From NCBI GenBank assembly GCA_016124975.1, contig WGMP01000055.1, positions 1-51,867 of the forward strand: a stretch of 51,867 bases of DNA, read 5' to 3'. Shown here piece by piece: positions 8,009 through 37,117 of this stretch. The notes beneath the pieces were generated by a model that saw only the letters and a program-made list of their open reading frames with translations, was not told the origin of the DNA and searched no databases. This stretch comes from Phycisphaera sp. Its GTDB lineage: Bacteria > Planctomycetota > Phycisphaerae > Phycisphaerales > SM1A02. How positions within the stretch are numbered: the first letter of the stretch is position 1; each line of letters begins with the position of its first letter. The translations under genes and the position numbers were made by a program.

Positions 8009-9835
8009 ATGCCGCGCGGGCGTGTCAAGACCGAGGCTGTGGACGGCGGGCTCTTCGTCAGGTTGCCCGCGAGTCTTCCTGCGGCTGCGGCTGAACTCGA
8101 CTTGGCGACCGAGCCGGGCCCTGCATCCCTTGTGTCAGGCGACGCGCTCGTGGCCGCGCATCTCGCGTCGCTCGATGCGGCGGTCGAGGACGGCGTGTCG
8201 CTGCGAGCGCGGCAAGGCAGCCACTACACGCCTCCTGCGCTCGTCGCGTGGGTGCTCGAGGAAGCGATGCGTGCGTGCGGCGCACACGACGAATCCGCGC
8301 CGACCACGGTGCTCGATCCCGCGTGCGGCGCGGGCAACTTCCTCGTGGCGGCGGCCGTGCGGTTGGCGCAGTCCGGTCGCCTGCGCATGGTCGATGTGCT
8401 CGCGACCTCGCTCTTCGGCGTCGATGTCGATGCGGGCGCGGTCGAACTCTGCCGCGCGCGCCTGCGAGCGCTCGTCCCGGGCGACGCGACCGAGGCGGAG
8501 CGCGCCGCCGTCGACGACGCCCTCGCGCGACACATCGTGGTCGGCGACGCGCTCGACGTCGCTGCGATCGCGTCGCTTGTCGCGGGCGCGGCGGCGCCCT
8601 TGCGAGGTGGCGCGTTCGACCTCGTCATCGGAAACCCTCCGTTCCTGAACCAGCTCGAGCGCGCGACCGCAGCGTCGCGCGCTCGCGCGGAGGAACTGCG
8701 CACGAGGACGAAGGGCGCGTTCGGCGGCTACGCCGATCTCGCGGGCGCGTTCCTTCTCGAGGCTCTTCGGGTGGTGCGTGCGGGCGGGGCGGTCGGGTTC
8801 GTCATGCCGCAGTCGTTCCTTGCCGCGGCGGATACGGGGCCCGTGCGCGCGCGTGCGCTCGAGTGCGCCCAGTTGCGCGCGCTGTGGGCGGCCAACGAGC
8901 GGCTCTTTGACGACGCGTCCGTGCGCGTCACGGCCGTCGTGCTTGTGGGCGGCCATGACGCGCGTCCGAGCCCGATGCGCCGCGCCTTCGGCGCCGACTT
9001 CAAGGCGCTGCCTGCCCGCGCCGTCGCGCAGCCCGCGGTCGATGAGCCGTGGTCGCCGCTTCTCTCGGATGCGCTCGGCGTCCCGACGCTTTCCACCGCG
9101 CAAGGGCAGGGCGATGGCGATGCCACCATCGGCGGCATCGCGCGCGCGACGGCCGACTTCCGAGACCAGTTCTACGGGCTCCGCGGTGTGATCCGCGACC
9201 TCGCGGAGCCGCCCGAGGGCGCGCACTCCCTGTTCCCGAGGCTCGTCTCCACGCGGCATGTCGACCTCGCGCGCGAGGCATGGGGCGCGGTCGATGCGCG
9301 CATCCTCGGCGCGCGCCATCGCCATCCGCGCGTGGATCTCGTGGCGCTCGCGGAGGTCCGCGGCATGGCGGCCTGGGCGGAGGCGCGGCTCGTTCCGAAG
9401 GTGATCGTCGCCACGCAGACGAAGGTGATCGAGGCGGTCGTCGACGAGCGGGGGGAGCTGCTTCCGCTGGTGCCGCTGATCACGGTGACGCTGCGCGCGG
9501 AAGCGGCCGAGCGGGGGATCGATCTCTGGATGCTCGCCGCCGCGATCGCGTCGCCCGTCGTCGTCGCGCGCGCCGCGGCGCGCTACTACGGCACGGCCCT
9601 CAGCGGCGCGGCCATCAAACTGAGCGCGCGGCAACTCCTCGAGATGCCGCTGCCCTCGCTCGACGCGCCGTGGCGCGCAAGCGCCGTGGCGCTTCGCGAC
9701 GCGTCTCGGGCCGACACCGCCGAAGCCCGTCGCGCGGCGCTCGGGCGTTTCGCGCGCGCATCGTGCGAGGCACACGCGCTTGCGGCGTCCGACGCCGAGG
9801 CGGCGTGCGCGTTCTGGCTGGCGCGCTGCGGCTAG
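8009..9835 (+). CDS. N6-adenine DNA methyltransferase, orphan
   Basis: 608 residues. It has the S-adenosylmethionine-binding motif I DPACGAGNF (about 103-111), an acidic motif II (FGVDVDAGAVELC), and the catalytic motif IV NPPF (about 209-212), in the order of gamma-type N6-adenine methylases such as Eco57I and TaqI. The upstream RARQGSHYTPPALVAWVL is typical of this group. The C-terminal region (YYGTALSGAAIKLSARQLLEMPLPS) resembles the TaqI-like target-recognition domain. There is no N-terminal nuclease domain and no restriction gene beside it, so it is probably a solitary methylase or the remnant of a restriction-modification or phage-defence locus. Its TAG stop lies inside the left arm of the inverted-repeat element that begins at 9832. 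Confidence 0.88.
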   Translation: MPRGRVKTEAVDGGLFVRLPASLPAAAAELDLATEPGPASLVSGDALVAAHLASLDAAVEDGVSLRARQGSHYTPPALVAWVLEEAMRACGAHDESAPTTVLDPACGAGNFLVAAAVRLAQSGRLRMVDVLATSLFGVDVDAGAVELCRARLRALVPGDATEAERAAVDDALARHIVVGDALDVAAIASLVAGAAAPLRGGAFDLVIGNPPFLNQLERATAASRARAEELRTRTKGAFGGYADLAGAFLLEALRVVRAGGAVGFVMPQSFLAAADTGPVRARALECAQLRALWAANERLFDDASVRVTAVVLVGGHDARPSPMRRAFGADFKALPARAVAQPAVDEPWSPLLSDALGVPTLSTAQGQGDGDATIGGIARATADFRDQFYGLRGVIRDLAEPPEGAHSLFPRLVSTRHVDLAREAWGAVDARILGARHRHPRVDLVALAEVRGMAAWAEARLVPKVIVATQTKVIEAVVDERGELLPLVPLITVTLRAEAAERGIDLWMLAAAIASPVVVARAAARYYGTALSGAAIKLSARQLLEMPLPSLDAPWRASAVALRDASRADTAEARRAALGRFARASCEAHALAASDAEAACAFWLARCG

Positions 9836-9998
9836 GTTCTGTCTGACGGATCCCCGAAGACCAAAGAAGCGCGCGGCGCCCGGACGGCAAGGAGGCGAAA
9901 CGAAGCTGTATCCGCAGCGATACAGCGAGTTGAAGCCTACGCCGCCAGCCGGGATGCCGCGCGATTCGACCCCCGGGGATCCGTCAGACAGAACCTAG
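9832..9998. mobile_element. MITE-like element with 25-bp perfect terminal inverted repeats
   Basis: A 25-bp perfect inverted repeat occupies 9832-9856 and 9974-9998, separated by 117 bp with no gene. The outermost four bases of each arm are CTAG, so CTAG (or TA) could be a target duplication around 21-bp repeats beginning GTTCTGTCTGACGG. The interior holds a 7-bp hairpin (CTGTATC / GATACAG, 9906-9912 with 9919-9925). Size, symmetry and lack of a transposase fit a non-autonomous miniature element. It sits between convergent genes, and its left arm supplies the stop codon of the methylase. Folded as RNA it would also make a very strong hairpin. Confidence 0.7.
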
Positions 9999-14399: not shown

Positions 14400-14581
14400 G
14401 AAACGGTGCCAAGCACGTGCCAACGGGTGCCATGCACCCCCTGGCACGTGCTTGGCACGTGCCAGGCACCACCGGAGCCGGGGAGGGCGGCCCGTGCCGC
14501 TCACTGATGGGCAGGGGCGTCCGTGCCTGGCACGTGCCGTCTGGTGCCTGGCACCTCCTGGCACGTGCTTGGCACCGTTTC
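14400..14581. repeat. Array of CACGTG palindromes flanked by a 23-bp inverted repeat
   Basis: A 23-bp perfect inverted repeat (14400-14422 with 14559-14581) bounds 182 bp between hpnH and the RdgC-like gene. Within it are five copies of CACGTG, most as TGGCACGTGC, plus repeated GGTGCC and GTGCCTGGCAC units. One inner perfect hairpin pairs CTGGCACGTG with CACGTGCCAG (14441-14450, 14456-14465). The array could form a large cruciform or a terminator for hpnH. It does not have the regular spacer pattern of CRISPR. Confidence 0.8.
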
Positions 14582-24693: not shown

Positions 24694-24703
24694 CCGCCCG
24701 GCT

Positions 24704-24791
24704 CAGCCGCGGGCGGCGTGGAGTTCAGCCGCGGGCGGCGTGGAGCTCAGCCGCGGGCGGCGTGGAGTTCAGCCGCGGGCGGCGTGGAGCC
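24704..24791. repeat. 22-bp tandem repeat, four copies, built from a gene's 3' end
   Basis: CAGCCGCGGGCGGCGTGGAGYT starts at 24704, 24726, 24748 and 24770, four copies of 22 bp. On the minus strand each copy reads as the last codons and TGA of the alpha/beta hydrolase (Leu-His-Ala-Ala-Arg-Gly-stop); only the last copy is in the gene. The period is not a multiple of three, so the copies do not extend the protein. Confidence 0.9.
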
Positions 24792-29611: not shown

Positions 29612-31398
29612 ACAGGATTACCCTTCGATCGATGCGCAGCGCGTGGCTTGCGGCGCTCGTCGTCGTCTCGGCCGCGCTGATCGCCCTCATGTCCGCGCAG
29701 CGTGCCGCGCATGCCGACACCACTCCCGCCGCTGCGAAGAGCTTCGCCGAGGCGGTCGATCTCCGCCCGCTCGGCACGATCGCCGTCCAGACCGACGGAC
29801 GCATCAAGAGCATGTCGAGCTTCGCGAACGAGATGATGGGCTATGTCTCCGGGCCGCGGCAGATCGCGGGGCAGACTCGGCTCTTCACCTACTTCGACAT
29901 GCTGTTCCGCCCTGACGCGTACCGCGACGCGGATGTGATCTTCGTGAAGGGCTCGGGGCCGCGCAAGCGGATCGTCGATCGCGCGATCTCCATCGAGGAC
30001 ACGCCCGAGATGCGCGAGCGCATGCGCGCCTTCGAGGAGAGCGGCCTCATCAGCGAGTCGCTGCTCCTGAAGCCCGAGATGGTGGCGCTCCTGCGCGAGA
30101 TGCGGCAGGACCTCATCCGCACCGCGAAGGTGGTCGATGCGGTCGACTCCGCGATCACGGTGAAGAGCCCGCGCTTCCTGCTCTCGAAGCTGCGCATCGT
30201 GCCGCGCGGCGACGGCGATCTCGAGCAGCAGTGGCACGGGATCGACTCCGTGATGTTCGCCGACGGCGAGGTGCCGCTTCCCGGCTCGATGCTGCTGCAG
30301 GCCGAGAAGGGACCCGCGCCCGCCGACCTCACGCCCGAGCAGCTCGCGGCGGTCGCCGATCCGTGGCGTGCGTTCGTCGGTGCGTGGCTGCGCGTCGATG
30401 CGGAGGGGGTGAACAAGGCGGTCGCCGACCTCGCGGCCGCGCTTCCGAAGATCGATCCCGCGAACTACCCAGACCAGAACCGACTGTCGTGGGAGTACTG
30501 GTACTTCGCGAACGGGCACATGACGAAGGTGTGGCTCGTCTACCTCGCCGCGTCGGTGCTCCTCCTCATGGCGTTCGTGTGGAAGTGGCCGATGGCGAAA
30601 GTCCTCGGCTTCGGCGTCTTCGGGATCGCGGTGCTGCTGCACACGGCCGCCGTGATGCTGCGCTGGTACATCGCCGACCGCTGGCCGAACTCGAACATGT
30701 TCGAGGCGGTGACGACCGCGGCGTGGATGGGCGCGCTCAGCGCGGTGTTCATCGAGTGGTTCACGCGCCGCACCGCGATGTCGGGCCTCTTCGCGCTCGG
30801 CGGCGCGATCTCGGGCATGGTCGCGCTCATGGCGGCGTACTTCCTGCCCGTCCAGCTCAACCCGAACATCACGAACATGATGCCCGTCCTTCACGACATG
30901 TGGCTCTACATCCACACGAACGTGATCATCTTCGCGTACGTGCTCATCTTCATGGCGGCGGTGTCCGCGGCGCTCTACATCGCCTACCGCTTCTTCGGCG
31001 GCGCGCCGACCTACGCGAAGGTGGGCGGCGCCGCGAGCCTCATCGTCGCAGGCCCGAACGGCGAGCAGCGCATGGTCGACGGTCGCGCGGGGATCGGCGA
31101 GATCCTCGACGGCGTGACGATGGTGCTGATGGAGGTCTCGTTCGTCCTCCTCTGGGCGGGCATCGTGATGGGCGCGATCTGGGCCGACCACTCGTGGGGC
31201 CGCCCGTGGGGCTGGGACCCGAAGGAGGTCTTCTCGCTGAACACCTTCCTGGTGTTCGCAGTGCTCATCCATGTGCGCCTCAAGGCCAAGGACAAGGGCA
31301 TGTGGACCGCGTGGCTCGCCGTGATCGGCGCCGCGGTGATGCTCTTCAACTGGATCGTGATCAATTTCGTGATCACGGGGTTGCACTCGTACGCGTGA
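29608..31398 (+). CDS. ccsA: CcsA-like haem-export and cytochrome c synthase subunit with soluble N-domain
   Basis: 596 residues. Start: TTG 29608 is favoured because AAGGAAGGAG lies 7 bases ahead and it overlaps the resB stop as TTGA, which suggests coupling; ATG 29632 is the alternative. After a signal or anchor helix a soluble region of about 300 residues precedes the membrane part. The CcsA portion has eight or so helices, an outward His in VLLHTAAVMLRW, a second in VLHDMWLYIHTN and the haem-handling WWD-type motif HSWGRPWGWDPKEVF (about 525). The C-terminus ends GLHSYA. With ResB it forms the system II synthase that attaches haem to CXXCH sites. Confidence 0.9.
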   Translation: MNRITLRSMRSAWLAALVVVSAALIALMSAQRAAHADTTPAAAKSFAEAVDLRPLGTIAVQTDGRIKSMSSFANEMMGYVSGPRQIAGQTRLFTYFDMLFRPDAYRDADVIFVKGSGPRKRIVDRAISIEDTPEMRERMRAFEESGLISESLLLKPEMVALLREMRQDLIRTAKVVDAVDSAITVKSPRFLLSKLRIVPRGDGDLEQQWHGIDSVMFADGEVPLPGSMLLQAEKGPAPADLTPEQLAAVADPWRAFVGAWLRVDAEGVNKAVADLAAALPKIDPANYPDQNRLSWEYWYFANGHMTKVWLVYLAASVLLLMAFVWKWPMAKVLGFGVFGIAVLLHTAAVMLRWYIADRWPNSNMFEAVTTAAWMGALSAVFIEWFTRRTAMSGLFALGGAISGMVALMAAYFLPVQLNPNITNMMPVLHDMWLYIHTNVIIFAYVLIFMAAVSAALYIAYRFFGGAPTYAKVGGAASLIVAGPNGEQRMVDGRAGIGEILDGVTMVLMEVSFVLLWAGIVMGAIWADHSWGRPWGWDPKEVFSLNTFLVFAVLIHVRLKAKDKGMWTAWLAVIGAAVMLFNWIVINFVITGLHSYA

Positions 31399-31423
31399 AC
31401 CAGCCGCGCACTCCCCGCTCGGG

Positions 31424-31540
31424 GGGCGCGACCTCTCCGCGCTGCTGTCGGCGTGGGGCGGCTGCCCGTAGACGCCCCGAGGGGTCACTCGCAACGCAGC
31501 AGGCGGGGCGCTCCGGACATGCCGGGGCTCCCCGCCTGGG
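31424..31540 (+). pseudogene. Orphan dockerin tail with hairpin (gene remnant)
   Basis: In frame with the TAG at 31469 the DNA reads GRDLSALLSAWGGCP-stop, the same end as the dockerin gene stopping at 34501 (DLAALLSAWGGCP). The similarity runs on for 70 bp past the stop, including the GCAGCAGGCGGGGCGCTCCGGAC hairpin arm, here imperfect (31503-31516 with 31522-31535). There is no start or body upstream, since ccsA ends at 31398. It is best seen as the surviving 3' end of a lost or moved dockerin gene. The remaining part of this 532-bp gap is leader A. Confidence 0.75.
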
Positions 31541-31690
31541 TTGGCCTTCGACGCGGCGGCTTCGATGACGCCGTGTAAGACGACGACCTCGGGACCGCTC
31601 GACCTCGCAGAGGCGGACACGACCCTCCGATCGGCGCTCGAACCGACGGATAGGGGGAATCTGTGATTTTGCCAGGTTTCCGATCTGATC

Positions 31691-31930
31691 CGTCTCGTCT
31701 TGCGCGTACAACACCGTTGACGGCTCCGCTGGCCTCCTCTCCCGCCAGCCCTCAACCACGACTCCCCGCCGTTGCATGTCTTCGGGAGTCGACATCTGAT
31801 CGCGCGGACCTGCCTGTTCCGTAATGCCCATGCCGTGATGCCCATGCCGTAGTGCATTTGGCCGGCGCACAGGCTTGTCCGCTGAGAGGCGATCCATGCG
31901 GGTGTATCCCGCAGAAAGGCTGAGTCCACC
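31691..31930 (+). promoter_or_regulatory. Structured leader A, homologous to leader B at 35402
   Basis: Three hairpins are shared with leader B: CTGGC/GCCAG (31729-31733, 31744-31748), CGACTCCC/GGGAGTCG with CCGTTGCA in the loop (31759-31766, 31784-31791), and GCGGG-N5-CCCGC (31898-31902, 31908-31912). The last hairpin ends 18 bases before the ATG in both leaders although the loops differ. Shared single-stranded text includes CTCGTCTTGCGCG, ATCGCGCGGA and CTTGTCCG-N2-GAGAGGCGAT. Conservation of stems with variable loops points to RNA structure. It matches no riboswitch class I can name. Confidence 0.6.
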
Positions 31931-34501
31931 ATGGCTCATCCACTCCGCAAGGGCGGCTCCACGATTCTGGAGCACGCCAGTCTTGGCCTGTCGGCGATCG
32001 CGTTGATCGCCGCTCCACTCCATGCCGATTGCACGGAACTGAAATGGCGCGACGGGCTTCAGATCGCCCTCGGCTTCGACGCGGTGCCGCCCGCAGCAGC
32101 GTCGATCGACCACGACGGCGACGGCGTGCCCACGCTGTTCGCCGCGGGCGAGGGCGCCGCGTCCGGCATCAGCTACGCGGGCCTCGTCCGCCTCGTCGAC
32201 GGCCGTTGGCAGCCGTTCGGACCGTCGTTCACGGGAAGCGTCGCGAAGTTCGAGCGCTTCGATCTCGATGGCGACGGAGTGCCTTCGTTCATTCTGCTCG
32301 GCTCGATGCAGCTCGAGGAAGGCGGCCCGCGCTACAGCATCCTCGAATGGACTGGCTCCCTATGGGTCGGCCACTCGAACGGGGTCAGAATCACGAGCGC
32401 AGTGCTCATCGATGAGATCGGCGCCAAGGGGCCGAGCCTCATCGGAACCGTGTGGTTGGGCTCCCCGCCGTCGTCGCCGTCTGGGCCGCTCGTTCGCTGG
32501 ACCGCGGGCGGCTGGGCGAACCTGACTCCCGAGTACACGATCACCAACGGGAACGCGAACGGGTCCACCATGATCGTCGCCGCGCACGACTCCGACGGCG
32601 ACGGGCGGAGGGAACTCTTCGCCCGCGCAAGCGTGAGCCAGTCGGGTGCGTCCATCTCCACGGGCATGGCGCGCTGGGATGGCGCGGCGTGGTCGTCGGC
32701 GATGGGTTCGGCAACGCCGCTCGTCGCCGACTCGATCCAGTCGATGTGCTCCGCCGACACGGATGGCGATGGCGTGCCTGAGCTCGTGGCCTCGCGTTTC
32801 ATCGCGTCGCCGGAGGAGACCGCGCCGCAGGTCGTCGCCTACGACGGCGACGCTTGGCGGCCGCTCGGCGAACGGTTCCTGCGCGTCTTCTCGACGGGGA
32901 CCTCCGGTGGCGCCGTGACCCTTGTTTCTGCGATCGACTTCGGTGATGGCGGCGGGTCGTCGTTGGTCGCCGCAGGAGTCTTCGACCGCGTGGGCACCTC
33001 GTCTCTCGCGAACCTCGCGCGGTGGGACGGCAAGGTCTGGACCGATGTCGGCGGGGGCCTGGCGAGTGCCGCCTTCGCCCCGCTCGTCGGTCACGACATC
33101 GATGGTGACGGCGCCAACGAACTTGTCGCGTTCGGAAACTTCGTCGAGACGGGAACCGAGGTCGTGAACCGCGCGGCTGCGTTCGACGGCGCTTCATGGA
33201 ACGCTATCGGCACATCCGCAGCGACCCTCGGCCTAAACGACGCGGCATCCGCGTCCGTTCTATTCGACCACGATGGCGACGGCATTCCGTCGTTGATCGT
33301 GGGTGGCGTGTTCAGCCAGGCCGGGACTGTGACTGCCCCGGCGCTTGCCGCCTTTGACGGCGCATCGTGGCAGCCCATCGCGAATCCGTGGACGGGCGGC
33401 GTCGATGCGCTGCTCGTCGCCGATCTCGATGGCGACGGAATCCCGTCGCTCTACGGCGCGGGCGCCATCGGCGCATCGGATGGCTCGCAGAGCGCCATCC
33501 GCACCATCGCGGTGTACATGCCGTCGAAGTCGGGCGGCAGCTGGACACAGCTCGGCGCGTCGTTCAACGCGCAGGTCGACTCGCTGTCGGCGCTCGACCA
33601 CGACCTCGACGGGCAGAAGAGCCTCTTCGCCGGCGGGTACTTCACGCAGTCCGGCGGCGCCGCGATCGGCAGGCTCGCTCGCTGGACAGGTTCGACATGG
33701 GCGGGCTTCACCCCCGGGTCTGGCGGGTGGGTCGGCTCATCGCTGATGTTCGACGACGATGGCGACGGGGCTCCGAGCCTGATCGTCGGGCTTGGAAACA
33801 ACGATCCAACCGTCTCGTTCCAGCGCGTGCGCAAGTGGAACGGCGCGTCGTGGGTGAACCTCGGCAGCATCCTCCAGGGCCATGTGTTCAGGCTGCAGGT
33901 GTTCGACCATGACGGGGACGGAGTAGCGTCGCTGTTCGCGTTCGGACAGTTCTATGTGCCCGGTGGCATCGGGCTCGCGCTGCGCTACGAGTCGGGGGCG
34001 TGGGTTCCGTTCGGGCCATCGGAGGTCTCATGGGCCGCCGACGCAGGCGTCGGTCTGTTGCGGTTCGATGACGACGGCGACGGCGTCGAGTCGGTCTTCC
34101 TGCAGAGCTTCGATCCGTTCTCGTACTTCCATGCATCGCTCTATCGGTACGACAACGCGGCGTGGACCGTGGCTGCCGCCTCTCTCGGCGGAGGCGCTGC
34201 GACGCTCGGCGTCGTGGCGGACATCGAGGGCGACGGGGCGCAGTCGCTGCACCTCGTCGGATACCTCGCCGCGCGGACCGGCGGCCCGGGCTCGGGTATC
34301 GGCATCATCGATCCCTGCGTCGACGCGTGTCCTGCGGACCTCGACGGCAACGGCGCGGTCGGCGCAACCGACCTCGCCCAACTGCTGAGCGAGTGGGGTG
34401 CCTGCGGCTCGGGCGCCTGTGCGGCCGACCTCGACGGCGACGGCGCGGTCGGAGCGACCGACCTCGCGGCGCTGCTGTCGGCGTGGGGCGGCTGCCCGTA
34501 A
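31931..34501 (+). CDS. Secreted repeat protein with C-terminal dockerin-like pair
   Basis: 856 residues from ATG 31931, the position that aligns with the start of the gene after leader B. A signal peptide ends near AAPLHADC. The body repeats a unit of about 50-60 residues of the form FDHDGDGVPSLFAAGxF...W.G..W..., for example IDHDGDGVPTLFAAGEG, DLDGDGIPSLYGAGAIG and FDDDGDGAPSLIVG, so it is a calcium-loop propeller or FG-GAP-like solenoid. The final 60 residues hold two EF-hand-type dockerin repeats (DLDGNGAVGATDLAQLLSEWG and DLDGDGAVGATDLAALLSAWGG) set between cysteines. Cohesin partners in planctomycetes are not established, so the tail's role is open. The gene is followed by a strong hairpin. 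Confidence 0.85.
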   Translation: MAHPLRKGGSTILEHASLGLSAIALIAAPLHADCTELKWRDGLQIALGFDAVPPAAASIDHDGDGVPTLFAAGEGAASGISYAGLVRLVDGRWQPFGPSFTGSVAKFERFDLDGDGVPSFILLGSMQLEEGGPRYSILEWTGSLWVGHSNGVRITSAVLIDEIGAKGPSLIGTVWLGSPPSSPSGPLVRWTAGGWANLTPEYTITNGNANGSTMIVAAHDSDGDGRRELFARASVSQSGASISTGMARWDGAAWSSAMGSATPLVADSIQSMCSADTDGDGVPELVASRFIASPEETAPQVVAYDGDAWRPLGERFLRVFSTGTSGGAVTLVSAIDFGDGGGSSLVAAGVFDRVGTSSLANLARWDGKVWTDVGGGLASAAFAPLVGHDIDGDGANELVAFGNFVETGTEVVNRAAAFDGASWNAIGTSAATLGLNDAASASVLFDHDGDGIPSLIVGGVFSQAGTVTAPALAAFDGASWQPIANPWTGGVDALLVADLDGDGIPSLYGAGAIGASDGSQSAIRTIAVYMPSKSGGSWTQLGASFNAQVDSLSALDHDLDGQKSLFAGGYFTQSGGAAIGRLARWTGSTWAGFTPGSGGWVGSSLMFDDDGDGAPSLIVGLGNNDPTVSFQRVRKWNGASWVNLGSILQGHVFRLQVFDHDGDGVASLFAFGQFYVPGGIGLALRYESGAWVPFGPSEVSWAADAGVGLLRFDDDGDGVESVFLQSFDPFSYFHASLYRYDNAAWTVAAASLGGGAATLGVVADIEGDGAQSLHLVGYLAARTGGPGSGIGIIDPCVDACPADLDGNGAVGATDLAQLLSEWGACGSGACAADLDGDGAVGATDLAALLSAWGGCP

Positions 34502-34532
34502 CCGCCGCGAAGGGTCTCCATCAATGCAGCAG

Positions 34533-34565
34533 GCGGGGCGCTCCGGACCTGTCGGAGCGCCCCGC
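34533..34565 (+). terminator. Hairpin terminator after dockerin gene
   Basis: GCGGGGCGCTCCG (34533-34545) pairs perfectly with 34553-34565 over 13 bp with a 7-nt loop, 32 bp past the stop. The T-tract is poor (TTGCGTCTGC). A diverged copy accompanies the orphan dockerin tail at 31503. Confidence 0.7.
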
Positions 34566-34955
34566 TTGCGTCTGCATGTGGGTGCATCGTCTGTCGTCGG
34601 CGCTGCAGAACTCAACTTCCGGAGCATGGCTCGGGTTGGCGAGCTCCCCGCATAGCGCCGTCGCCCGTGATGAATCCGCGCGCATTGGGAGTGCATCCTG
34701 ATCGTCTCAGAGCATCGGTGACGTGGCTCGATCTCCCAGCACGGTCGTGCGGGGCACCCACGGTTCCGTGTCAACCAGCTGTCGCATGCTGGGGATCGTG
34801 CTGACCTTGGCTTGACTGGGTTGCGGCGTAGCCCTCGAGCGCCACTCAGTGCCTGCAGGAATCGCTCTGAAGCGGTCGGTGACGCACGCAGTCCACGCCG
34901 GTCACGAGATCTTCAGAGTTCCATCAATCTGGAGCAACCGCCGGGGCAGTCCTTG

Positions 34956-35401: not shown

Positions 35402-35601
35402 CCTCGTCTTGCGCGGCGTCTCCGCTGGCCCTCTCTCAAGCCAGACCTCAATCACGACTCCCTCCCGTTGCACTTCTGAGGGAGTCGAGCACATCAATCG
35501 CGCGGAGCTTCACCGGCCACGCCGCACGTGGCTTGCGCTGTGAACTTGTCCGTGGAGAGGCGATTCACGCGGGCGAGTCCCGCAGAAGGAGCGAGCCAGT
35601 C
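35402..35601 (+). promoter_or_regulatory. Structured leader B, homologous to leader A at 31691
   Basis: Hairpins CTGGC/GCCAG (35425-35429, 35440-35444), CGACTCCC/GGGAGTCG (35455-35462, 35480-35487) and GCGGG-N5-CCCGC (35569-35573, 35579-35583) match leader A. The last is followed by AGAAGGAG, the ribosome site, and the start codon lies at the same 18-base distance. Between hairpins 2 and 3 the spacing is 82 bp here and 107 bp in A, so insertions are tolerated there. Confidence 0.6.
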
Positions 35602-36888
35602 ATGGATCATCGAGATGGTACGAACCGCGTCGCCGGCGCCACGCCCTGCATCCTGAGCCAGTCGTCGACGGAGCTGGCTGCCGCGCCGCGGCATGGAGAC
35701 CTGGCGCGGGACGCTTCGCGGCCCACTTCGCAGCCCACGCGCCTCCCGTCTTCAGGCGCATCGCGTGCGCGCATCGGCGGATCGTTCCGCGGCCTCTGCT
35801 GTATCCTCGGCATGTCGATCGCCGCAGCCCCGATCGCGCTCGCGGCTCCAACCGCACGCGAGCACACAGCGTGCAGCGCGGACATCGATCGCAACGGCAT
35901 GGTCGGCGCTCCCGATCTCCTGGTGCTTCTCGGCGCGTGGGGTCCGAGCGCGGACGGCATCGCGGACCTCGATCGGAGCGGCGTCGTCGACGCAGAAGAT
36001 CTCTCGATCCTGCTGGCATTCTGGGGATCGACCTGCGATGCACTTTCATGGGCCACCGTGCTCGAAGAGGCGCCTGATCCTGCGATCGTCACGAGCGCGT
36101 CGCTGCGAAAGGCGATCATCGCAACGGGCTACCCATGGCGCGTCCGCGACAACCTCACGGACATCGAGATGGTGCTTGTTCCGCCCGGAGAGTTCGAGAT
36201 GGGATGCTCGCCGTCGATGGACTTCGCATGCGGCCCCGACGAATCGCCTGTCCACGCGGTCACGCTGACGACGGCCTTCTACATGGGCCGCTACGAGGTC
36301 ACGCAAGCCCAGTGGACGGCACGGATGGGCTCGAATCCGTCTGCCTTCCAGGCCGCGAGCACGGAGGTGCCCGCCAAGCGGGTCCCGAACCGTCCCGTCG
36401 ACCAAGTGTCGTGGGACATGATCCAAGGCTTCCTGTCAAAGACAGGGCTGCGCCTTCCGACGGAGGCCGAGTGGGAGTACGCATGCCGGGCGGGCACGAC
36501 GACGGCGTTCCACGGGCGGCCCGACGAGGCCGATGGCACGGACGACGATGCGCAGTTGGAGAACATCGCGTGGTTCGGCGCCAACTCGAACGGCCAGACC
36601 CATCCCGTGGGTGGAAAGGCGCCGAACGGATTCGGACTGCACGACATGGCTGGCAACGTGTGGGAGTGGGTGAACGACTGGTACTCGGGCAGCTACTACG
36701 CGTCGAGCCCCGCGGCGGACCCGCTCGGACCTGCGACAGGATCTGGTCGCGTGCTGCGCGGCGGCGGCTGGGTCAACCACACGAACAACCTGCGCTCCTC
36801 CTACCGCAACAGCCTGTCGCCCGACTTTGCGGTCATCAACTTCGGATTCCGCGTCGTGAGGTCGGTTGATCTGCCGCCCGAGAGCTGA
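35602..36888 (+). CDS. Dockerin-like plus FGE/SUMF1-fold secreted protein
   Basis: 428 residues from ATG 35602, set by leader homology and the AAGGAG ribosome site; an ATG at 35812 (MSIAAAPIALAAP) would give a normal signal peptide and is the main alternative. A pair of dockerin-type repeats is at about 91-145 (DIDRNGMVGAPDLLVLLGAWG, DLDRSGVVDAEDLSILLAFWG), at the N-terminus instead of the usual C-terminus. Residues about 180-425 are a formylglycine-generating-enzyme fold (MVLVPPGEFEMG, YEVTQAQW, LRLPTEAEWEYACRAG, GNVWEWVNDWY, RVLRGGGW, FGFRVVRS). The catalytic cysteine pair of true FGE, expected after GGGW, is absent, so oxidase activity is unlikely and a binding role is more probable. Confidence 0.85.
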   Translation: MDHRDGTNRVAGATPCILSQSSTELAAAPRHGDLARDASRPTSQPTRLPSSGASRARIGGSFRGLCCILGMSIAAAPIALAAPTAREHTACSADIDRNGMVGAPDLLVLLGAWGPSADGIADLDRSGVVDAEDLSILLAFWGSTCDALSWATVLEEAPDPAIVTSASLRKAIIATGYPWRVRDNLTDIEMVLVPPGEFEMGCSPSMDFACGPDESPVHAVTLTTAFYMGRYEVTQAQWTARMGSNPSAFQAASTEVPAKRVPNRPVDQVSWDMIQGFLSKTGLRLPTEAEWEYACRAGTTTAFHGRPDEADGTDDDAQLENIAWFGANSNGQTHPVGGKAPNGFGLHDMAGNVWEWVNDWYSGSYYASSPAADPLGPATGSGRVLRGGGWVNHTNNLRSSYRNSLSPDFAVINFGFRVVRSVDLPPES

Positions 36889-37021: not shown

Positions 37022-37117
37022 GGTCGAATCGACGGTGATGTCGATGACGACGACAACGGCACGGTCGGGGCGACCGACCTCACCGCGCTGCTGTCGGCGT
37101 GGGGCGGCTGCCCGTAG
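37022..37117 (+). pseudogene. Second orphan dockerin tail
   Basis: Read in frame with the TAG at 37115 this gives RIDGDVDDDDNGTVGATDLTALLS-AWGGCP-stop, again matching the end of the gene at 34501. It has no start codon and no body, and its frame differs from that of the FGE-like gene ending at 36888. It sits 68 bp before the enolase start. With the copy at 31424 it shows that this 3' module has been duplicated or left behind by deletions. Nothing else was seen in 36889-37021. Confidence 0.75.

Follow-up and report, generated by a model that had tools for sequence, protein, structure and literature searches.

Messenger RNA leaders that are bound by proteins or targeted by small RNAs exist, the leaders of ribosomal-protein genes being one example, and in RNA thermosensors like ROSE and fourU the Shine-Dalgarno sequence is held in a weak helix. 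Candidate structured RNAs were reportedly the subject of a large survey by Weinberg et al. in 2017. For pilus genes, an excerpt of one paper describes a c-di-GMP-II riboswitch preceding the type IV pilus operon of C. difficile (PMC11477304), and an excerpt of another lists the Rhodopirellula-1 motif as a candidate structured RNA of Planctomycetes and Proteobacteria (PMC2864571). In the literature searched, which did not extend to the 2017 survey, no publication on a leader of the kind described below was identified by title or abstract. Prepilin-like genes are numerous in the planctomycete lineage concerned (5 to 77 matches per genome in 61 genomes), and no RNA control of them was named in the titles and abstracts searched. 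We provisionally call the element a new family of structured mRNA leader.

The window, which is the whole stretch of DNA analysed here, comprises 51,867 nucleotides of a Phycisphaera sp. contig and contains two copies of the element, leader A and leader B. Homologues were sought with three covariance models: R1, based on the four leaders A, L037, L041 and L044, R2, restricted to the hairpin P2, and R3, trained on leaders of the genus together with A and B only. The features of the two leaders and their genes are as follows.

31707 to 31712, + strand: promoter-like -10 element TACAAC, 6 nt upstream of the presumed RNA start at 31719
31719 to 31919, + strand: leader RNA A, whole element, from the presumed start to the end of the Shine-Dalgarno sequence
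31728 to 31749, + strand: P1 hairpin GCTGGC/GCCAGC with UCUC within the loop (covariation)
31759 to 31791, + strand: P2 hairpin CGACTCCC/GGGAGTCG with the loop CGCCGUUGCAUGUCUUC, in RNA GCCGUUGCAUGUCUUC (covariation)
31798 to 31803, + strand: 5' arm of P4a, GATCGC (covariation in the 16-row alignment A6)
31804 to 31809, + strand: first part of the 5' arm of P4b, GCGGAC (covariation in A6)
31846 to 31862, + strand: candidate hairpin P5, GCCG/TGGC with AGUGCA in the loop, a weak stem placed by eye
31877 to 31882, + strand: 3' arm of P4b, GTCCGC (A6)
31884 to 31888, + strand: GAGAG bulge separating the 3' arms of P4b and P4a, which could pair with UCUC in the P1 loop
31889 to 31894, + strand: 3' arm of P4a, GCGATC (A6)
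31898 to 31912, + strand: P3 hairpin GCGGG/CCCGC, letters constant in 16 of 16 genus rows of A6
31913 to 31919, + strand: Shine-Dalgarno sequence AGAAAGG, immediately 3' of P3 (sequence)
31931 to 34501, + strand: gene A, with FG-GAP repeats, a C-terminal dockerin-like domain and prepilin-like first 16 codons
35413 to 35590, + strand: leader RNA B, the second copy, with no recognisable -10 element (R1)
35424 to 35444, + strand: P1 of leader B (sequence)
35455 to 35487, + strand: P2 of leader B with CACUUCU in the loop (R2, 34.9 bits, E 0.003, B being in the R2 seed)
35496 to 35501, + strand: 5' arm of P4a of leader B, AATCGC, compensated relative to A
35560 to 35565, + strand: 3' arm of P4a of leader B, GCGATT
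35569 to 35583, + strand: P3 of leader B, GCGGG/CCCGC, absent from the MFE fold of B
35602 to 36888, + strand: gene B, with an FGE-sulfatase domain and a weak dockerin-like stretch

Leader A scored 188.3 bits with R1 and 140.5 bits with R3, being part of both models, and leader B, which is outside the R1 seed, was found by R1 at 35416-35590 with 75.8 bits (E 9.4e-17). We regard it as rather probable that A and B represent a new family of structured 5' leader RNAs that act in cis, in which the P2 loop would dock a trans-acting factor and the leader would tune the expression of surface proteins. Leader A additionally contains near-repeats of GTAATGCCCATGCC at 31820-31855, which are absent from B.

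Taken by themselves, A and B prove little about a structured RNA, because the stem letters of P1, P2 and P3 are identical in the two copies, which lie 3.7 kb apart, and because the single sequences fold only weakly better than shuffles (z -1.80 for A, with 7 of 200 shuffles folding as well; z -0.90 for B, with 38 of 200). The three stems reported for both leaders in the preliminary description, GCTGGC/GCCAG, CGACTCCC/GGGAGTCG and GCGGG/CCCGC, are all present in A and B, but the long-range helices P4a and P4b, of which P4a closes the 3' half of the leader, had been overlooked. At P4a, the copies differ by a compensated change, from GATCGC/GCGATC in A to AATCGC/GCGATT in B. These three stems lie where they had been placed, the element probably starts near 31719 rather than at 31691, and the spacing of 18 bases between CCCGC and the ATG is exact in A and B but not universal, since it ranges from 15 to 18 in 14 congener leaders.

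Pairing was analysed in alignment A6, which consists of 16 rows fitted to the model and replaced a 24-row alignment that included low-scoring rows; L040, whose match is split by a long insert, and L049, which contains P2 only, were excluded. In A6, 92.7% of the cells were paired, compared to 74.4% in shuffles and 28-46% in slid controls. Changes on both sides were identified at 26 of the 38 pairs, and none of 500 shuffles reached any of the five measures. Such changes occurred at all eight pairs of P1 (90.4% of cells paired), at five of eight in P2 (100%), at four of six in P4a (92.7%) and at all nine of P4b (83.7%), and at neither of the two pairs modelled for P5. Since A6 was fitted to the model, its counts lean toward the model, and checks on unfitted alignments therefore matter. 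From 11 leaders aligned with plain MAFFT, RNAalifold recovered P1, P2, P4 and P3 unaided, and 15 of the 31 pairs were double-changed. When P2 of eight chosen rows was aligned without gaps (A9), 100% of the cells were paired and six of seven pairs were double-changed; the double-change count was reached by one of 500 shuffles and the other four measures by none. The letters of P3 are invariant, so that this stem yields no covariation evidence inside the genus. Missing homologues, or stems disrupted without compensation, had been considered at the outset, and neither was found: homologues exist, and P1, P2, P4a and P4b covary. A conserved structured RNA, larger and older than first seen, is thus strongly supported by the comparison of sequences. 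In the P5 loop region, AGTGCAC is present in 11 of 14 congener leaders. A kissing interaction between the P2 and P5 loops was considered and found to be unsupported, its pairing being broken without compensation in L044, L045 and L046.

Within the contigs of the own genome, the third-stem pattern gave three matches, namely A, B and one on contig C28, and the reversed pattern, used as control, gave none. Among 181 genomes of the family, the pattern was identified in 11, every one from a single genus, and the loop pattern of P2, for which at most two mismatches were allowed, matched in 15 of 16 genomes of this genus, some extra matches being due to chance. R1 identified 11 further congener leaders (E 1.7e-33 to 1.8e-16) and the C28 leader (E 3.3e-9), whose 46.7 bits are the lowest score of any row in A6; the sole exception among the 15 congeners was G086, with no strong R1 match (best E 0.021). 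In 14 of 15 congeneric genomes the leader is located upstream of a prepilin-type gene, and the N-terminal methylation motif scored above the cut-off in all congener proteins scanned (TIGR02532, PF07963; three proteins against NCBIfam and two against Pfam). The usual host is a prepilin-type gene, and not a dockerin gene. The prepilin genes are often organized in tandem arrays, and in the arrays whose coordinates were compared the leader precedes the first member; in G077, a second member also carries P2 (L049). The C28 match precedes an open reading frame with GFTIVELLVVVSIIALLIALLLPAV, a prepilin N-terminus. This leader (G000:C28:40202-40363; L003, L199) has no conserved P2 loop but retains P3, GAGAG and AGAAAGG, and its gene is truncated by the contig end. 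A short pattern used to scan a named sequence collection gave four genuine leaders (L057, L113, L128, L137) among the 116 matches listed.

Outside the genus, R1 matched G048, which belongs to another genus, upstream of a prepilin gene, and G003 with 29.7 bits when the filters were off. In 400 genomes of the order, five outside-genus genomes were matched by R1 at E<=0.01, none of them directly upstream of a prepilin gene; at one outside-genus locus (L207) a prepilin motif follows about 700 nt further on. Apart from G048, the outside-genus R1 matches at E 0.0005-0.01 look like chance. With R2, 18 outside-genus genomes among the 181 of the family gave weak matches only (E 0.02 to 0.5), and of 15 weak loci inspected, 14 outside the genus and one in G086, a single one (G147) was followed by a prepilin gene. 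The pattern CCGTN{0,4}CATGTCTTCGG matched seven outside-genus genomes of the same 181, only in G048 upstream of a prepilin gene, and its reversed control gave one match.

The stretches upstream of 100 prepilin-like genes were also examined, of which 86 were kept after dropping 14 in which a prepilin motif could not be recognised close to the expected end. For CAYNUCU, a motif picked after part of the tested genes had been seen, a stem of 6 bp or more closing a loop of 8-20 nt that contains the motif was found in 21 of the 86 on the sense strand and in 2 on the antisense strand (0 to 6 in 20 shuffles), which leaves 65 of the 86 stretches lacking it. For stems of at least 7 bp, the counts were 16 and 1, with 0 to 2 in shuffles. 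Nine upstream stretches came from other families within the order, and none of them contained a P2-type hairpin. Applied to the 86 stretches, R3, which is independent of the CAYNUCU motif, gave eight matches at E<=0.1, every one on the gene strand; at E<=2, 20 of its 22 matches were on that strand. Among 20 hand-chosen genomes, several of them selected for a known P2-like hairpin (G003, G043, G048, G147 and G176 among them), R3 identified six elements outside the own genome, spread over five genomes from four further genera (G004, G005, G048, G176 and two in G147); all six precede prepilin genes, and 14 of the 20 genomes gave no match. P3-like hairpins of other letters adjoin GAAAGG in 11 of the 32 stretches containing this sequence (mean 3.5, maximum 10 in 200 shuffles), with the variants GCGGC/GCCGC, GCGGTC/GACCGC, TGCGGA/TCCGCA and GCAACTC/GAGTTGC. 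In L377, from a sister genus (G005), a hairpin upstream of P2 likewise presents CATGTCT in the loop, giving the impression that P1 and P2 are related.

These data bear on whether the element acts as DNA. A promoter-like -10 just upstream would suit a dyad-symmetric operator or promoter element. However, the arms vary freely while pairing is kept and an asymmetric loop is retained, the element lies downstream of the -10, and ahead of prepilin genes the loop motif favours the sense strand (55 sense, 8 antisense), so that we consider such a DNA element very improbable. The initial view that the leader is a structured RNA rather than promoter DNA is supported by the covariation, by the strand bias and by the occurrence of homologues in several genera.

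At a fixed distance upstream of a conserved RCGGC, a -10-like TAnnnT/C is present in 13 of 14 congener leaders and is one base off in the fourteenth; it is present in A and absent from B. Since a scan with the sigma-70 consensus found no promoter upstream of A or B, we only infer the start of transcription, which is probably at about 31719, and B may lack a promoter of its own.

The Shine-Dalgarno sequence AGAAAGG is identical in 14 of 14 congener leaders. The energies for opening it lay on both sides of those of shuffled leaders, with native ranks from 4 to 39 of 40 in 15 leaders; as they did not differ consistently from the shuffles, they give no positive sign of translational control. The proposal that GCGGG/CCCGC could control translation gained no support, for the stem is invariant and ends before the Shine-Dalgarno sequence, and the effect of the rest of the leader on the predicted opening cost is inconsistent. 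A hairpin adjoining the Shine-Dalgarno sequence might suggest an RNA thermosensor that melts near the ribosome site, but P3 ends before AGAAAGG and excludes it, the stem has 5 bp in the genus, all of them G-C, and the opening energy is not consistently raised in the 15 leaders. Since no occlusion of the Shine-Dalgarno sequence was found, a thermosensor appears extremely improbable. A riboswitch and a protein- or sRNA-bound leader remain candidates. An upstream open reading frame from the AUG in the P2 loop was rejected, because in A the frame ends after seven codons and the AUG is missing from homologues whose loop has CAC.

P3 is part of the MFE fold in 14 of 15 leaders, B being the exception, and adjoins AGAAAGG, as would be expected of a rigid leader that passively stabilises the transcript or enhances translation, shielding the mRNA and keeping the ribosome site clear with no regulation involved. 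Such a role would not, however, need a near-invariant loop of 16-17 nt whose CAYNUCU core recurs in other genera, and we consider it possible, though on the unlikely side.

For a riboswitch, the bulge GAGAG in P4 would receive the P1 loop, and a small-molecule pocket would be built by the conserved loops; for pili, a second messenger such as c-di-GMP is the obvious guess. A precedent is the c-di-GMP-II riboswitch of the C. difficile pilus operon described in the excerpted source (PMC11477304). The several helices, the near-invariant loops and a possible pseudoknot fit this idea. GAGA is present in 16 of 16 rows and UCUC of the P1 loop in 15 of 16, and 12 of 15 leaders retain the fifth pair between the P1 loop and GAGAG, L033 by a double change and L045 as a wobble. 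This pair fails, however, in three leaders (L036, L039, L043), and G003 has no visible GAGAG. In addition, Rfam release 15, c-di-GMP riboswitches included, gave no match at the gathering threshold in the whole window, and in seven homologue loci all eight matches at E<=5 were under threshold. At E<=10, leader A gave only the M23 RNA (RF03006; 20.8 bits, E 0.19, 31863-31919), at half the gathering score of 41.2. No terminator-like site was identified around A or B, and no masking of the Shine-Dalgarno sequence was found. A riboswitch is regarded as unlikely.

According to the reading preferred here, that of a leader with a docking loop, transcription would begin at about 31719 and the RNA would fold into P1, P2, the long-range helix P4a/P4b enclosing P5, and then P3, which ends exactly where the Shine-Dalgarno sequence starts and would keep the ribosome site clear. 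In this planctomycete lineage the element is usually found ahead of a prepilin-type gene, in many cases the one that opens a tandem array; in the own genome, two copies precede genes of dockerin-type surface proteins, A together with the first codons of a prepilin-type gene. The near-invariant P2 loop may be the docking site of a trans-acting factor, either an RNA-binding protein or a small RNA. With a factor docked at this loop and the ribosome site kept clear by P3, the leader could set the translation or the mRNA lifetime of secreted surface proteins. More tentatively, and with a rather low probability, the CAYNUCU loops in the leaders of numerous prepilin genes of a planctomycete family may all be read by one RNA-binding protein, small RNA or new riboswitch ligand, forming a lineage-wide RNA regulon to which new surface-protein genes are added by capturing the leader along with the first prepilin codons, as gene A would have done.

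For gene A, the start MAHPLRKGGSTILEH resembles the prepilin starts of the congeners, which are MAHPNRKSGFTIVEL or similar, and its codons 1-16 share 36 of 48 nucleotides with the prepilin starts at L041 and L042 in an ungapped comparison. The remainder of the protein contains FG-GAP repeats (FG-GAP_3, 1.7e-11) and a dockerin-like domain just under the cut-offs (Dockerin_1, 22.1 bits with a cut-off of 22.9; NF041540, 23.8 bits with a cut-off of 29). On these grounds, a dockerin-like gene with FG-GAP repeats seems to have acquired its front part from a leader and the start of a prepilin gene. Gene B has the FGE-sulfatase domain (2.3e-52) and matched NF041540 with 21.1 bits, under the cut-off of 29; a prepilin-like start is not evident. 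Both A and B look like leader copies captured by dockerin-type genes. In the other genomes of the genus, R1 at E<0.01 found no second leader except the prepilin paralogue of G077 and the second half of a split leader in G081, so that this capture seems particular to the present genome. A dockerin C-terminus is present in three copies, at 31384-31541, 34414-34571 and 37030-37116; behind each of the first two lies a terminator-like inverted repeat, similar in both. Copies one and three are remnants that fall outside the reading frames of genes A and B, which gives the locus the appearance of a tandem dockerin array in decay.

Elsewhere in the window, adjacent flagellin genes (29-1039 and 1340-2965) share repeated stretches that are 79-86% alike. 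A perfect inverted repeat of 25 nt, CTAGGTTCTGTCTGACGGATCCCCG, with 117 nt between its arms (9832-9998), resembles the termini of a small mobile element, and an inverted repeat at 14400-14581, with 60-nt arms of GTGCCAAGCACGTGCC-like units, is possibly REP-like or a mobile element. At 24701-24788, the 22-bp unit GCTCAGCCGCGGGCGGCGTGGA is tandemly repeated four times.

The leader provides a defined, testable RNA with natural variants and a clear loop to mutate, and an apparent example of an RNA leader that moved to a new gene class along with coding sequence. In comparison to described systems, the M23 RNA shares with leader A a G+C hairpin followed by GAAAGG; however, the match covers neither P1 nor P2, and M23 is absent from the matches at E<=5 in the seven homologue loci. 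The c-di-GMP-II riboswitch of C. difficile, as far as it is described in the excerpt (PMC11477304), is likewise a structured leader upstream of pilus-type genes, whereas for the leaders described here no Rfam match and no expression platform were found. Leaders bound by proteins or small RNAs resemble A and B in that covarying stems present a fixed loop upstream of the start codon; in contrast to the leaders of the ribosomal-protein type, the genes served here are those of prepilin or dockerin-type surface proteins.
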